DNA of 42,815 nucleotides, from assembly GCA_001805575.1 (NCBI GenBank), contig MHGN01000018.1, forward strand, positions 19,637 through 62,451, read 5' to 3'. Below the pieces are notes generated by a model. That model saw nothing but the letters and a program-made list of their open reading frames with translations, was not told the origin of the DNA and did not search any database. This document shows positions 332-20,520 of the stretch, in pieces; within the stretch, counting starts at the first letter, position 1; each line of letters begins with the position of its first letter. A program made the position numbers and the translations under genes. This stretch comes from Omnitrophica WOR_2 bacterium RIFCSPHIGHO2_02_FULL_45_21 (lineage in GTDB: Bacteria; Omnitrophota; Gorgyraeia; Gygaellales; UBA12090).

Positions 332-841
332 TTATTTTATCGGCTTACCCCCCTCGGTGGGCTTGCGCGGTGAAAACTGGGACTTAGGGGCAACGGATAC
401 GGTTATGCCGGCCTTGTTTGCCTTTTCATCTATAGTGATGATGCAGGTTTCATTCTCTTTCTCAAAGCTGATCATTCTTCTGCCATGTTCAACAATGTTA
501 AGTAGCTGCCAGTTATAAAGCGGCATCTGTTCTTTGAAAAAGACAACCGCCTGTTCTCCTGTTGCCTTGCCATTATACTTTAAGAGCCCGGCGCGAAAAC
601 CCGTGGTCTGGAAGGCGTAGGATTCCTCCGGCGCAAACTTAAATACCGCGGGCACAGGGATGTCTGAAAATTTTAGCAATGCCGCCGGCTCTAATGCCGG
701 TACCTGGGTGGGGTCAGAACTTTTGCTGGTAGTGGCGCATCCTGTCAAAAGGAGTAAGCAGTAGACAGTAGTCAGTAGAGAGAAGATAGTTGATGGTTTA
801 TAGTTTATAGTTGATAGCTTTAAATTTTTTCTGTTTTGCAT
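332..841 (-). CDS. Small lipoprotein of unknown function
   Basis: The 169-residue product has a lipobox LTGC ending at Cys35, so it should be lipidated and anchored in a membrane after export. The mature part (about 55-150) has alternating strands and is rich in charged and aromatic residues; it looks like a small globular domain, and I cannot name a family with certainty. The first 30 codons are odd: residues 8-30 are encoded by degenerate repeats of ACTATAA- and CTACTG-type units (751-817), so the hydrophobic core of the signal peptide comes from repeat DNA. The gene lies directly downstream of the tRNA-Arg gene. The last residues are a Lys/Pro-rich tail. Confidence 0.7.
   Translation of the reverse strand: MQNRKNLKLSTINYKPSTIFSLLTTVYCLLLLTGCATTSKSSDPTQVPALEPAALLKFSDIPVPAVFKFAPEESYAFQTTGFRAGLLKYNGKATGEQAVVFFKEQMPLYNWQLLNIVEHGRRMISFEKENETCIITIDEKANKAGITVSVAPKSQFSPRKPTEGGKPIK
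751..817 (-). repeat. Degenerate short-unit repeat inside the lipoprotein signal sequence
   Basis: On the plus strand this reads as repeated GCAGTAGACAGTAGTCAGTAG-like units followed by units of the type TATAGTTTATAGTTGATAG. The unit length is about 7-9 bases with drift. Related blocks occur near 855-886, 3325-3390, 10912-10985 and 20485-20512. Confidence 0.65.
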
Positions 842-891
842 TCATCCCTCCGTCTTTTGACCCGTAACCTGTGACTTGTAACTTAGAATAA

Positions 892-964
892 TGCCCCTGG
901 CAGGAATCGAACCTGCCCACATGGTTTAGGAAACCACCGCTCTATCCTTATGAGCTACAGGGGC
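892..964 (-). tRNA. tRNA-Arg (anticodon CCU)
   Basis: The minus strand folds into a full cloverleaf. The 7-bp acceptor stem is GCCCCTG/CAGGGGC and the D stem is GCTC/GAGC with GG in the loop. The anticodon stem GTGGT/ACCAT carries loop TTCCTAA, giving anticodon CCU, which reads AGG. The T arm is GCAGG, TTCGATT, CCTGC. The discriminator is A. The 3' CCA is not encoded, so it must be added after transcription. No long variable arm is present, which excludes Leu and Ser. Confidence 0.97.
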
Positions 965-9928: not shown

Positions 9929-11338
9929 TCAACCTTGGCCTTTTACTCGTTTTCGTAAATATTCATCAATTGCCAGTGCCGCCTTTTTCCCTGCCCCCAT
10001 TGCCGCGATGACCGTATCTGCCCCGCTGACAATATCGCCTGCGGCAAAAACCCCGGGAATTGAGGTCATAAAATTTTTATCCACTACAATTGTCCCATCG
10101 GGATTTGTTTTAAGTTCTGCTGTAGCTTTGCTTAGAAGCGGATTAGGGGTTTGTCCGATTGCCACAATCAGGGTATCTATATCCATAACGAAGTTTGAGT
10201 CCTTTATCATGATTGGCCGCGGCCTTCCTGAATTATCGCACTCGCCTAACTGCATTTTTACGCATTCCAGCCCCTTGACGAAGCCATGCTCATCGCCAAG
10301 GATGCTTACCGGCTGGCTAAGCAGTTGAAGGCTTATCCCTTCATCTCTGGCATTTTGAATTTCTTCGCTTCTTGCCGGCATTTCTGCTTCGCTTCGGCGA
10401 TAAACTATTGTCACCTCGCTTCCTAATCGCAGGGCGCAGCGGGCAGCGTCAAAGGCAACATTACCGCCTCCAATCACTGCTGTTTTCTTGCCGATATTAA
10501 CAGGGGTTCTGTATTCCGGGAATGCATAGGCGCGCATTAGATTTATGCGGGTCAAGAATTCGTTAGCCGAGTAAACCCGGCCTAAGTTTTCTCCCGGAAT
10601 GTTTAGAAATTGCGGCAGGCCCGCGCCCAGTCCCAGGAAAATTACAGGATACCCCTTTTCAAAGAGGTCTTTTATGGTAAAGGTTTTGCCAACTAAAACA
10701 TTGGTTTGTATTTCTACGCCCAAACTTTTTATATAGGCGATTTCTTCATCTACAATTTTCTTAGGCAGGCGAAACTCCGGTATGCCATAGCTAAGCACTC
10801 CGCCAGCTAAATGTAATGATTCAAAGAGCGTAACCGAATATCCAATTTTAGCAAGGTCTGCGGCTATTGTCAAGCCCGCAGGGCCGGAGCCGACTACGGA
10901 AATTTTGGTCGCAGGCCGCAGGTTGCAGGTCTCAGGTTCTTTACTTGTGACTTGTGACTCCCGACTTGTGACTGGGGACCTGCCATAGTCTGCGGCATAT
11001 CTTTCCAGCGCTCCGATATTGATAGGGATTTTCTTCTTATTGAGGATGCACATTGCCTCGCACTGCTCCTCCTGCGGGCAGACCCTGCCGCAGACAGCGG
11101 GAAGATTATTTCTTTCTTTGATTTTAGCCAGGGCTTCTTTGATTTTATCTTCGCGGATGAGTTTTATAAAAGCGGGTATATCTATTTCAACCGGGCATCC
11201 TTTAACGCATAAGGGGTCTTTGCACAAAAGGCAGCGCTCGGCTTCTTCCCGCGCCTGTTTCTTCGTATAGCCCAGGGTAACCTCAAAGAAGTTTTGGATT
11301 CTTTTTTTTATATCCTGCTGCGGAACTTTTGCTCTCAT
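9929..11338 (-). CDS. nfnB: NADH-dependent reduced ferredoxin:NADP+ oxidoreductase, large subunit (NfnB)
   Basis: This subunit resembles the small chain of glutamate synthase. With NfnA it forms the cytoplasmic Nfn complex, which couples NADH and reduced ferredoxin to NADPH by electron bifurcation or its reverse. Cys clusters for [4Fe-4S] centres are in CLLCKDPLCVKGC (36-48) and CGRVCPQEEQCEAMC (83-97). The FAD site VVGSGPAGLTIA is at 148-159, and an NADP-binding site GGGNVAFDAA lies near 290. Residues 121-145 are an insertion absent from homologues I know (SPVTSRESQVTSKEPET-like), encoded by short-unit repeats. The gene partner upstream, nfnA, is the strongest argument for Nfn rather than a glutamate synthase subunit, since no gltB is present. 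Confidence 0.93.
   Translation of the reverse strand: MRAKVPQQDIKKRIQNFFEVTLGYTKKQAREEAERCLLCKDPLCVKGCPVEIDIPAFIKLIREDKIKEALAKIKERNNLPAVCGRVCPQEEQCEAMCILNKKKIPINIGALERYAADYGRSPVTSRESQVTSKEPETCNLRPATKISVVGSGPAGLTIAADLAKIGYSVTLFESLHLAGGVLSYGIPEFRLPKKIVDEEIAYIKSLGVEIQTNVLVGKTFTIKDLFEKGYPVIFLGLGAGLPQFLNIPGENLGRVYSANEFLTRINLMRAYAFPEYRTPVNIGKKTAVIGGGNVAFDAARCALRLGSEVTIVYRRSEAEMPARSEEIQNARDEGISLQLLSQPVSILGDEHGFVKGLECVKMQLGECDNSGRPRPIMIKDSNFVMDIDTLIVAIGQTPNPLLSKATAELKTNPDGTIVVDKNFMTSIPGVFAAGDIVSGADTVIAAMGAGKKAALAIDEYLRKRVKGQG
10912..10985 (-). repeat. Degenerate short-unit repeat inside nfnB
   Basis: On the plus strand it reads as CAGGTTGCAGGTCTCAGGTT followed by several ACTTGTGACT units. It keeps the reading frame and encodes the linker between the iron-sulphur and FAD regions of NfnB. 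The same units occur at the ppdK/sigma junction. Confidence 0.7.
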
Positions 11339-13150: not shown

Positions 13151-14872
13151 TTATTTCTGAAAGAACTTCATCAGTTCTTCGTAAGATAACGTGTTGAGGA
13201 GATCATTCTTAGTCAGCCAGCCGCGCCTTGCCGTAGCCACGCCCAAGCGCATATAATTAAGCTGGCTGGCGCTGTGGGCATCAGTGGAAATAGCTAATTT
13301 TACGCCTTTTTCTTTGGCCTGGCGGGCGTGAGTGTCGTTTAAATCCAGCCGCAGCGGATAGCCGTTAATTTCTAAGGCTGTCCCATAATCTGAGGCGGCC
13401 TTAAAGAGCTGATGGAAGTCTACTCCATAGCCGTCCCGTGTTCCCCAGAGCCTTCCGGTAGGATGGGCAATGATATCCACATTTTTATTTTTACAGGCGC
13501 TCACTAAGCGTTTAGTGTTTTGAGTCTCCGATTGCTTAAAGCCGCTATGGATTGCCGCTAGCACAACGTCAAATTCAGCCAGAACACTATCAGGGTAATC
13601 AAGATTTCCCTCTGCGTCAATGTCAACTTCTGTCCCGAAAAGTATCCTGAAATTTCTCATTCGCGAGTTTAATTTATCCACCTCTCTCTTTTTTTCCTTT
13701 AGTTCCTTAATCGAGAGGCCTCCGGCTACCTTTAGGCTCTGCGAATGATCGCTGATGTTGAGGTATGTATATCCTGACTGCCGGGCCGCCTCAGCCATTT
13801 CCGGGATGCTCTGCTGGCCGTCAGAATATTTTGAATGGGAGTGAAAATCGCCTTTGATGTCTTTTAAAGAGACAAGCTCGGGCAGTTTATTTTGAGCTGC
13901 TAACTCCACTTCGCCGCGGTCCTCCCGTAACTCCGGCTCAATGAAGCTTAAGCCCAGCCGTTTAAAAATTTCTTCCTCTGTCCTGCCCGGAAGGCAGGTT
14001 TCTTTATTGCCTTTGAGCTTAAAAACTCCATATTCGTTTACCTTTAAATTTTTCTTGATTGCCAGTTGTCTTATTTTAATATTAAAATTCTTTGAACCGG
14101 TAAAATAAATCAGCGCCGCTCCATAGCTTTTTTCTTCCACTACCCTTAAATCCACCTGGGCGCCTTCATCGGTGATCACGGAAGATTTGCTTTCGCCTTT
14201 TGCAGTTATATCTTTAACCGCAGGCAGTTTTGTAAAGGCCTCGATTACCTTATTCCTTGAGTCCGAAACAACCAAGATGTCGATATCCCGTATTGTTTCC
14301 TTCATTCGGCGCAGTGAACCGCAGGCAGTTATTTTCTTCACATAGTCGTGCGCTTTGAGCGGTTTTATGAATTCATCCGCCCTGAGCATGGCTGTATCCA
14401 GGTCCATTCTCTGGCGGCCTTTTTCAAGCAGGGCTATGCCTTTTAAGATATTTTCCACCGTTTTTTCTTTTATCCCTTTTAGCCCGGAGAGTTTTCCCTG
14501 GCCGGCAGCTTTTTTTAACCCGGCGATACTTTTTATTTTGAGCTCTTCAGAAAATAGTTTTGCATGTTTTGGGCCGAGGGAGGGGACATTCAACAAATCC
14601 ATCAGCCCTTGAGGAATTGTCTTCCTGAGTTCATCGTAAAACCTGAGTTTTCCGGTTTTTACGATTTCAATGATTTTTCCGGAGAGGTCAGGGCCTATCC
14701 CGGGGATAAGCCTGAGCTGATTTTCATTAATCAAGTCCCGGGCATCCTGGTTGAGGCTTTCGATATTCTGCGCTGCCCGTTCATAGGCGCGCATGCGGAA
14801 GACATTTTCACCCTTGAACTCTAAGATTCTGGCAATGTTACGAAATATTTTGGCAATGGCCTTACTTATCAT
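13151..14872 (-). CDS. polX: DNA polymerase/3'-5' exonuclease PolX
   Basis: Bacterial PolX fills short gaps in base-excision repair and has a C-terminal PHP exonuclease. The 573 residues show the N-terminal lyase-like helix-hairpin-helix region (1-100, with IPGIGP), the nucleotidyltransferase core GSLRRMKETIRDIDILV (about 183-199), and the PHP domain from about 338, opening FHSHSKYSDGQQS and carrying DHSQSL, GTEVDID, HSGF, HPTGR and STDAH metal ligands. Length is typical. Its start overlaps the end of the small membrane protein by 11 bases. Confidence 0.96.
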   Translation of the reverse strand: MISKAIAKIFRNIARILEFKGENVFRMRAYERAAQNIESLNQDARDLINENQLRLIPGIGPDLSGKIIEIVKTGKLRFYDELRKTIPQGLMDLLNVPSLGPKHAKLFSEELKIKSIAGLKKAAGQGKLSGLKGIKEKTVENILKGIALLEKGRQRMDLDTAMLRADEFIKPLKAHDYVKKITACGSLRRMKETIRDIDILVVSDSRNKVIEAFTKLPAVKDITAKGESKSSVITDEGAQVDLRVVEEKSYGAALIYFTGSKNFNIKIRQLAIKKNLKVNEYGVFKLKGNKETCLPGRTEEEIFKRLGLSFIEPELREDRGEVELAAQNKLPELVSLKDIKGDFHSHSKYSDGQQSIPEMAEAARQSGYTYLNISDHSQSLKVAGGLSIKELKEKKREVDKLNSRMRNFRILFGTEVDIDAEGNLDYPDSVLAEFDVVLAAIHSGFKQSETQNTKRLVSACKNKNVDIIAHPTGRLWGTRDGYGVDFHQLFKAASDYGTALEINGYPLRLDLNDTHARQAKEKGVKLAISTDAHSASQLNYMRLGVATARRGWLTKNDLLNTLSYEELMKFFQK

Positions 14873-15296
14873 CCCGATTGAAGTCCTTCGCCCTAAAACC
14901 TTTTAGGGCGCGCATAGTTATAAAATAAAAAGAATGTGTCTTGATAGTAGCGCTATTACCAATGAGATCAAATAGTATATGCTGGCTTATTCCAATGGCC
15001 AGGGAAATCCAGAAAATTCCAAGTTTATAGATATAAATAAGAAGCCAGAAGAGAAAGAGGAATTCCAAGGAATGAAAAATAAGGATCAAGTATACGAATC
15101 GCTGTTCAACGCAATATCGCCAGAAGCGCTTGAGATTGAGGCTGGGGCCTTCCTGAAGGCAGTAATCAAAGAGGTGGTCAATGTCAATAACTAAACCGCC
15201 GATAAAAGAAGCGATAAAACACGATACTGACTTTGTAATTAAATAGATAACAGCCGATACCGCTATCGTAGCTTTAAAATGATATAATGCCTTAAT
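14862..15296 (-). CDS. Small membrane protein with DxDH and HxxxD motifs, apparent ATT start
   Basis: An uninterrupted reading frame of 144 residues has four hydrophobic segments, an early GGLVIDIDHLFDY block and a later SQHILFDLIGN block. These motifs recall small integral-membrane proteins of the YdjM/DUF457 metal-dependent hydrolase type; that relation is tentative. No ATG, GTG or TTG occurs before the first motif. The frame opens after a stop with ATT AAG GCA, preceded by AAAGGGA at ideal spacing, so I chose ATT (15294-15296) as the start. The first ATG, at 15089, would remove the conserved DxDH block. It overlaps polX, suggesting coupled translation. A sequencing frameshift in the A-run before ATT is the alternative. 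Confidence 0.65.
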   Translation of the reverse strand: MKALYHFKATIAVSAVIYLITKSVSCFIASFIGGLVIDIDHLFDYCLQEGPSLNLKRFWRYCVEQRFVYLILIFHSLEFLFLFWLLIYIYKLGIFWISLAIGISQHILFDLIGNSATIKTHSFYFITMRALKGFRAKDFNRDDK

Positions 15297-15340: not shown

Positions 15341-16291
15341 TTACAAAGTGCAGGTGTTTTTTTGGCCTACCCGTAAGCTGTAGCTTGCCTCAATGGTCTT
15401 CACTAAATACGTTAGCGCCGCGTTGACCGGGGTTGCTATGCCTAAGCCCTGGGCCTGTCTTACCACTGCCCCGTTTATAAAATCAATTTCAGTGCGCCTT
15501 TGTTTTAAAACATCCTGGAGCATGCTAGAGACGTTATTGGCGGTTGCTTCACAAACTGCCTCAACCTTAGAGAGCGGGTCGTCATAAATTAACCTGATCC
15601 TTTTTTTCTTCGCCACTTTTATTGCCTCATTGACCGCTTCTTCCAGGATTTTCCTTGTTCCGTCAAATTCAATCAGCCTGCCGTTGTTTAAGCGGGTGAT
15701 TGCGGTAAGGGCATTGATGCCTACGTTGATCATCAACTTTGACCAGAGCAGGGCCTTAATGTCTTTGCTAATGCAGGTCTTAAGCCCCGCCTTGTTAAAG
15801 AGTTCGCGGATAGAGCGCAGTTCAGCGGTAATTTTGCCATCCATGCGGCCGAACACTGTTTCCCCGCGCCCGGCGTGCCGTATTGATCCTGCGGCTAAGA
15901 GCGTTGCTCCGTGATTAGTGGTGCCGCCAAGGGTTTTTTCCTGGCCGGCCACTTCGGAGATGATTTCCGTGTTGCCTAAGCCGTTTTGCAGGCTGAGCAC
16001 TAAAGTCGATTCGCCAAGCATGGGCTTGATATCCTTAAGGGCGCCTTTGGTGTCATAGGATTTTACCGCTATAATGATAAGGTCCTGGGGGCCTATTTCT
16101 TCGGCGCTTACGCTGACGTTGACTTTTGCCTGCCAATTACCCGAGACGCCCTCTGCTTTTATGCCTTGCTCTTTGATTTTTTGGGCGCGTTCGGCATTTT
16201 TATCTAAAAGCCAGATTTCTTCCCCGCTCTTTGAGAGAAAACCGGCTAATAAACATCCCATAGCTCCCGGCCCGACAATGGTTATTTTCAT
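15341..16291 (-). CDS. panE: 2-dehydropantoate 2-reductase (ketopantoate reductase)
   Basis: PanE reduces ketopantoate to pantoate with NADPH, the step after PanB in pantothenate synthesis. The 316 residues start with the dinucleotide-binding motif VGPGAMGCLLAGFL (6-19). The catalytic Lys block is SKLMINVGINALTAI (about 188-202), and the EAVNEAIKVA and LQDVLKQRRTEIDFINGAVV blocks (the latter about 262-281) complete the C-terminal domain. Members of the wider ApbA family can act on other 2-oxo acids, but the presence of panB in the same gene run supports this role. Confidence 0.93.
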   Translation of the reverse strand: MKITIVGPGAMGCLLAGFLSKSGEEIWLLDKNAERAQKIKEQGIKAEGVSGNWQAKVNVSVSAEEIGPQDLIIIAVKSYDTKGALKDIKPMLGESTLVLSLQNGLGNTEIISEVAGQEKTLGGTTNHGATLLAAGSIRHAGRGETVFGRMDGKITAELRSIRELFNKAGLKTCISKDIKALLWSKLMINVGINALTAITRLNNGRLIEFDGTRKILEEAVNEAIKVAKKKRIRLIYDDPLSKVEAVCEATANNVSSMLQDVLKQRRTEIDFINGAVVRQAQGLGIATPVNAALTYLVKTIEASYSLRVGQKNTCTL

Positions 16292-19968: not shown

Positions 19969-20520
19969 TTAATCTCTTGGTATTTTTAGCTGCTGCCCGG
20001 CCCTAATTTTATCCGGGCTCTTGAGTTCGTCTTTATTCGCTTCAAAGATCTTCGTCCATTTTTTGCTTGTTCCGTAAGATTGAACAGAGATTTTTTGTAA
20101 GCTGTCGTCTTTCTTGACTATGTAGGTATCATATTTCTCTGCAGCCGTTCTCTGGGTTGATTTATCCTCATTCGGCTCAAATGCCGGAGGCGGAACTTCA
20201 AGATAACCGCGCTTTCCTTCGGGTGAGATATCCTGCGTTTCTCGCCGTTCAATCGGCTTCGGCGGTTCTTTAACTTTCTCAAATTTTACCGGGCTGTGCA
20301 TTTCAATTTCTACAATTCTGGTTGTGCGTTGGATGAATTTTTTTGGCGCAGGAGCGCCGGCCGGCGCAGAGCCGGTTAAATATCCTTGATTACCGCCTGT
20401 CTCCTGGTCAACCCTGTCTTTTACTGCCGAGTATGTCCTGACTGTGCATCCGCTTAAAAATAGCATAGTTACCAAACCAGATACTGCCCACTGCCCACTG
20501 CCCACTGCCAATTTTTTCAT
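19969..20520 (-). CDS. LysM-domain lipoprotein
   Basis: A lipobox LSGC ends at Cys25, giving a lipid-anchored cell-envelope protein. Residues 130-183 form a LysM domain (YIVKKDDSLQKISVQSYG, then QQLKIP), which binds peptidoglycan. Between them is a low-complexity Pro-rich linker. Residues 4-14 of the signal peptide (LAVGSGQWAVS) are encoded by a run of ACTGCCC-type units, one of the short-unit repeat blocks of this window. Start is supported by GAGGAGG about six bases upstream. It is the third gene downstream of hisS and precedes phoH. Confidence 0.9.
   Translation of the reverse strand: MKKLAVGSGQWAVSGLVTMLFLSGCTVRTYSAVKDRVDQETGGNQGYLTGSAPAGAPAPKKFIQRTTRIVEIEMHSPVKFEKVKEPPKPIERRETQDISPEGKRGYLEVPPPAFEPNEDKSTQRTAAEKYDTYIVKKDDSLQKISVQSYGTSKKWTKIFEANKDELKSPDKIRAGQQLKIPRD
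20485..20512 (-). repeat. Tandem ACTGCCC repeat at the start of the LysM lipoprotein gene
   Basis: Near-exact copies of ACTGCCC (plus-strand reading) run through codons 4-14 of the gene. They preserve the reading frame and extend the signal peptide. Confidence 0.7.

Follow-up and report, generated by a model that had tools for sequence, protein, structure and literature searches.

The window, i.e., the whole 42.8-kb stretch of DNA that was analysed, belonged to a 1.31-Mb Omnitrophota draft genome. The gene at 332–841 (minus strand) encoded a protein of 169 amino acids. A Shine-Dalgarno-like GGAGGG (846–851, minus strand) was located 5′ of the ATG at 841, and a tRNA-Arg (CCT) gene, detected by ARAGORN at 892–964 (minus strand), lay directly upstream. 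The product was predicted to be a Sec/SPII lipoprotein, as an n-region, a hydrophobic h-region and a lipobox cysteine were all present. The lipobox L-T-G-C was encoded at 737–748 (minus strand), and the lipid-modified Cys was expected at codon 35. This Cys was invariant across 73 aligned orthologues; the contigs with orthologues of this family came from Omnitrophica WOR_2 GWF2_43_52 and other Omnitrophota MAGs. The mature domain belonged to no family in Pfam or NCBIfam, and no solved sequence relative was found for it. The 73-row alignment gave a good prediction of an alpha/beta fold (pLDDT 84.8); an earlier prediction from 6 rows was poor. The PDB structure matches to the predicted fold were weak (best E 6e-3, TM about 0.3), and LpqN/MTC28, DcrB, and PsbP were among them.

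Nearly the whole signal peptide (codons 9–31) was encoded by degenerate arrays at 748–820 with a strict 7-base period. Array A (786–822, minus strand) consisted on the coding strand of the units ACTATAA, ACTATAA, ACCATCA, and ACTATCT and encoded the n-region LSTINYKPSTI; it was found both by TRF (period 7, score 44) and by the lag scan. Array B (748–790, minus strand; TRF 759–790, lag scan 748–779) consisted of CTACTGA, CTACTGT, CTACTGC, and TTACTCC and encoded the h-region. The units given by TRF were CAGTAGA (+)/TCTACTG (−) for 759–790 and ATAGTTT (+)/AAACTAT (−) for 786–822, which represented two abutting period-7 arrays. Both were composed of head-to-tail 7-nt units and are thus heptanucleotide tandem repeats. 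A weaker heptad stretch (GTTACAA, GTCACAG, GTTACGG, and GTC), read in the sequence and under the 19/24 threshold, was located in the leader between the tRNA-Arg and the gene (857–888, minus strand). Among lags 2–20, only lag 7 attained 19 of 24 matches in the window, and it did so at four places: 748–779, 781–812, 10907–10937, and 20476–20516. The lag-7 score of the 332–841 signal peptide gave p = 0.001 against codon shuffles, which was the floor of the test. The first-pass annotation had described the h-region as repeat DNA, and TRF, the lag scan and the codon shuffles confirmed this. Its extent and unit were revised: the repeats covered codons 9–31 instead of 8–30, and the unit was 7 nt, each of the 19–20-nt strings proposed earlier corresponding to about three units.

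Further copies of those strings had been proposed as a check. The 20-mer CTACTGACTACTGTCTACTG had no other match at ≤3 mismatches in the 1.31-Mb assembly, and the ACTATAA unit did recur in the genome, once within the signal peptide of another gene. What recurred was the 7-base period. In 344 kb of the same genome, a sample of about a quarter of the assembly chosen partly around contigs with repeat matches, there were 24 lag-7 tracts vs. 0–3 at other non-harmonic lags. The corresponding numbers, apart from harmonics 14 and 21, were 26 vs. 0–2 in 191 kb of genome G007 and 18 vs. 0–4 in 365 kb of 20 further members of the order; the stretches of G003 in the sample were partly masked. No period-7 tract was detected in 100 kb of E. 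coli K-12. Many unit families were found within one genome, including CTATAAA, GGTTACT, CCTGTGA, GCTATCC, and GGCCTCC. CTATAAA was tried as a phylum-wide marker and rejected, since it occurred in 6 of 117 genomes and was too unit-specific for measuring the class. Two and one period-7 tracts were present in 20 kb of L095 and L096, respectively, both Deltaproteobacteria/Thermodesulfobacteriota contigs from unrelated genomes, which indicated that the class is not restricted to Omnitrophota.

Across three samples, 43 of 70 tracts were located in the intergenic DNA, which made up about 9.5% of the sequence (binomial p = 1.7e-26). The occurrence at many, mostly intergenic loci agreed with the heptanucleotide SSR/STRR class, and the limitation to one or a few fixed units per genome that marks this class was not observed. 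Of the 27 tracts inside genes, 23 had units without a stop on the coding strand, vs. 14 of the 43 intergenic tracts (p = 2e-5). Some of the host genes, judged by their N-termini, we take to be PheS, PheT, and RecG; in-gene tracts were therefore not confined to doubtful reading frames. Arrays inside apparently conserved enzyme genes (POR_N oxidoreductase, PheT-, PheS-, RecG-, and ABC ATPase-like) were located at L021:1775-3348, 14843-14874, and 15681-15725, L029:1680-1721, and L027:11517-11561. In the window, the adjoining arrays GGTCGCA and ACTTGTG (10907–10973) were found inside a Fer4_20/pyridine-nucleotide oxidoreductase gene (9929–11338, minus strand). They corresponded to about codons 122–144, between two Pfam domains of which the first ends at 120 and the second starts at 145, and thus formed an interdomain linker from repeat DNA. 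Inverted pairs of intergenic arrays, which could form long hairpins, were observed at L103:6052-6119, L052:13193-13341, L045:9194-9353, and L056:9091-9160.

The heptads were enriched in signal peptides. When 105-nt segments with at least 17 of 21 lag-7 matches were counted, and hits common to every lag (runs of N) were subtracted, 8 of 188 hydrophobic (signal-peptide/TM) N-termini contained lag-7 heptads, vs. 1 of 626 other N-termini (odds ratio 28, p = 5e-5) and 15 of 5897 internal coding windows (odds ratio 17, p = 2e-7), the signal-peptide class being defined by a crude rule of hydrophobicity on genes called with a home-made program. The genes involved were varied and included the two lipoproteins of the window, a cupredoxin, and an exported protein with weak DUF4131 similarity. 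The cupredoxin had heptad signal peptides in all five orthologues, and the exported protein at L021:16147-16668 had them in most orthologues, with five unit families. In its orthologues L169, L170, and L171, the signal peptides contained heptad arrays in inverted pairs. Two of them, L170 and L171, had the polar n-region on the purine-rich arm and the hydrophobic h-region on the pyrimidine-rich one. In the examples read, the coding strand of the h-region arrays was pyrimidine-rich or T-rich (CTACTGT, TTTGCTA, TTTATGG), and several n-region arrays were purine-rich. This is the pattern that selection on the peptide would leave.

Comparison of orthologues revealed that signal peptides with and without repeats had been exchanged on one conserved protein. 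In the 332–841 family, three of six members had heptad signal peptides, each with a different unit (CGTCCTT in G003 and TTTCTGG in G006), and those of G005, G007, and G002 were ordinary and without heptads. G006 and G007 belong to one genus and were identical at 394 of 425 nt (93%) from the lipobox on; the 60 nt before the lipobox agreed at 17 of 60 positions, i.e., at the random level. The two signal peptides were unrelated, one being a heptad array and the other not, in a comparison that is unpolarised. Among 78 signal peptides from the whole order, the level of p ≤ 0.01 against codon shuffles was reached by 12 at lag 7, by 8 at lag 8, by 9 at lag 14 and 7 at lag 16 (the harmonics), and by 0–3 at other lags. 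The lag-8 cases belonged to other genera within the order and were octad arrays, for instance (GTTATTGG)n and (TTCTTGTG)n; one or the other of these made up the signal peptides of the lipoprotein orthologues at L064:1814-1874, L069:418-465, L080:1637-1684, L082:1900-1936, and L083:1504-1546. On a tree of 73 mature domains, from which the signal columns were left out, the states none, 7, and 8 needed at least 18 changes, some of which may represent the decay of one ancestral array below detection; this order-wide tree had many weak forks. Orthologues with the same peptide encoded by unrelated DNA would have spoken against the repeats as a source. The peptides of the orthologues differed, and they were derived from other heptad or octad arrays or from non-repeat DNA.

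A similar replacement was found in the second lipoprotein of the window, which contained a LysM domain (19969–20520, minus strand) and whose n-region was derived from the heptads MKKLAVGSGQWAVSGLVTMLFLSGC. Its array (GGCAGTG)4 was located at 20476–20516 (minus strand), and the congener G001 had (TTTACGG/TTTACAG)4 in its place. The position, register and length of the two arrays were alike and the flanks were near-identical; the units were 83–93% alike within a genome and 50% between the two. Together with the units in the orthologues of L021:16147-16668, this indicated that the unit changes while the period and the place persist.

We consider it probable that the signal peptide of 332–841 consists of two short degenerate heptad arrays of the genome-wide Omnitrophota period-7 class, and that slippage-type turnover rebuilt an older export signal. 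Directly observed in this explanation are the 7-base period and its excess across the genome, the enrichment in signal peptides, the exchange of signal peptides in close relatives and the stop-free in-gene units. The first-pass annotation had suggested that the export signal was born here from repeats, and the comparison of N-termini that it proposed bore out the turnover of repeats and not the birth of export. Orthologues across the order and distant Thermodesulfobacteriota relatives had a lipoprotein-like signal; therefore, export, as predicted from sequence, is older than the repeats, and a tolerant module was probably rebuilt recurrently rather than export arising de novo. Repeat DNA thus seems to remake export signals again and again in this bacterium and its relatives.

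The requirements on a signal peptide are limited to a polar or basic start, some 10–12 hydrophobic residues and a cleavage box. Because so little is demanded, an old segment could be replaced without loss of export by a stop-free array that is pyrimidine-rich on the coding strand. The likeliest mechanism would be slippage with in-register unit turnover: replication slippage, in steps of 7 nt, would both create the arrays and turn them over, and unit variants would spread within the array. Within genes, such arrays would survive only at sites that accept nearly any sequence of a suitable kind; most genes could not take them, whereas intergenic DNA, linkers, and signal peptides could. Since neither 7 nor 8 is a multiple of three, an array passes through each of the three frames in turn and encodes one cyclic peptide whatever the entry frame, which may ease its capture. 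The agreement between frames was 97% for random heptads vs. 71–76% for 6- and 9-mers. About 4% of random heptads gave a stop-free hydrophobic 12-mer, so the capture of a heptad as an h-region would not be rare. However, the shortness (3–6 units) and the degeneracy of the arrays should slow slippage, and this counts against it. We also considered, as a rather unlikely proposal, that an intrinsic DNA-synthesis or repair activity of Omnitrophota working in 7-nt steps (8 in some genera) keeps rewriting arrays of any sequence, so that the secretome would be re-tagged by in-register turnover and not by point mutation.

Other explanations were weighed against rebuilding by slippage. An array with a unit length not divisible by three, placed just past the start codon of an exported protein, has the classic layout of a contingency locus, in which the gain or loss of one 7-nt unit would shift the frame of the mature protein and switch the lipoprotein on or off; the array peptide itself would read alike in any frame. 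Such phase variation is nevertheless unlikely here, as the arrays are short and degenerate, the unit number and signal-peptide length were kept in the LysM and cupredoxin orthologues, and nearly all orthologues were in frame. It is very unlikely that the heptads are a regulatory element near start codons, comparable with the intergenic TAACTGA of Beggiatoaceae, to which a translational regulator binds and whose overlap with the signal peptide is incidental. Most heptads are intergenic, and the leader stretch at 857–888 would suit such an element. However, the units varied by orthologue and by locus, and hence did not provide a shared binding site; heptads were almost absent from N-termini that lacked a signal peptide (the 1 of 626 given above), and the leader and signal-peptide region folded no better than shuffled sequences (z +1.3), i.e., without RNA structure or a hairpin. 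The window arrays did not belong to the TAACTGA repeats either, as their units differed and they were located inside the coding sequence.

The inverted arms that encode the n- and h-regions in three orthologous signal peptides, the similar repeats at many loci and genes, and the inverted partners of some tracts (2–4 per genome sample vs. at most 0.35 expected) could point to a small mobile element, MITE or palindromic, that carried heptads into signal-peptide segments. No conserved sequence existed beyond the 7-base period, however; the unit families were many, no common termini were seen, and orthologues had different units, which made this origin quite unlikely. The window arrays of 332–841 had neither terminal inverted repeats nor a conserved element, and an inverted partner that was sought for them was not found, so they were not assigned to the MITE or palindromic elements. 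That the periodicity arose by chance in a leucine-rich signal peptide of low complexity is hardly credible: signal peptides are compositionally biased, but the shuffles applied to 332–841 kept the composition, the clear excess over the 78 signal peptides was confined to lags 7 and 8 and their harmonics, and noncoding tracts share the period.

Heptamer repeats, repeats turned into protein, and one predicted signal peptide partly derived from a MITE are already known. In Yersinia, the RU-2/YPAL MITE forms part of the predicted signal peptide of YPO1552 (Delihas 2007; PMC2759123, PMC2229807). That is a 168-bp element of fixed sequence in one putative protein, whereas Omnitrophota have 7–8-nt arrays of many sequences, repeatedly in conserved lipoproteins. 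Heptanucleotide repeats include GGGAATC in Xanthomonas and Nostoc (PMC4692102), TAACTGA in Beggiatoaceae (PMC4679880) and the cyanobacterial STRR, and polymerase slippage is cited as a proposed cause of their abundance (PMC4692102, PMC4679880). They share with the Omnitrophota tracts a 7-nt unit that is scattered genome-wide and mostly intergenic. However, their units are fixed and number one or a few, they seldom occur inside genes, and they have been considered as regulatory or G-quadruplex DNA; in Omnitrophota the unit is free to vary, the period is kept, and signal-peptide codons are enriched. In Borgs, tandem repeats occur in genes as well as between them and become part of proteins, and the repeat proteins are enriched in signal peptides (PMC9879509). 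The Borg in-gene units have lengths that are multiples of three, are nearly perfect and mostly encode disordered regions, in contrast to the Omnitrophota unit, which is degenerate, has a length not divisible by three, and forms the hydrophobic signal as such. The Rickettsia palindromic elements found in genes (Ogata et al. 2000, via PMC2229807), as far as they are covered there, are fixed and 105–146 bp long. They resemble the heptads as selfish-looking repeats that are kept in frame where conserved genes tolerate them, but in that account they are not heptad arrays and a preference for signal peptides is not described. In the open-licence literature, we came across no account in which arrays of 7 or 8 nt recurrently rebuilt signal peptides, and none of heptads in Omnitrophota.

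Signal peptides tolerate great sequence freedom, and the source of new ones is rarely seen. Here, the source of export signals can be read directly as heptad and octad arrays of noncoding type, on the basis of repeat and non-repeat versions in one genus and of many changes on one gene tree. The question is raised why slippage-like arrays hold a 7- or 8-nt period whatever the sequence; if the activity working in 7-nt steps were real, signal peptides would change through array turnover and not through point mutations. With the source readable in this way, where export signals come from and how they turn over becomes a countable process.
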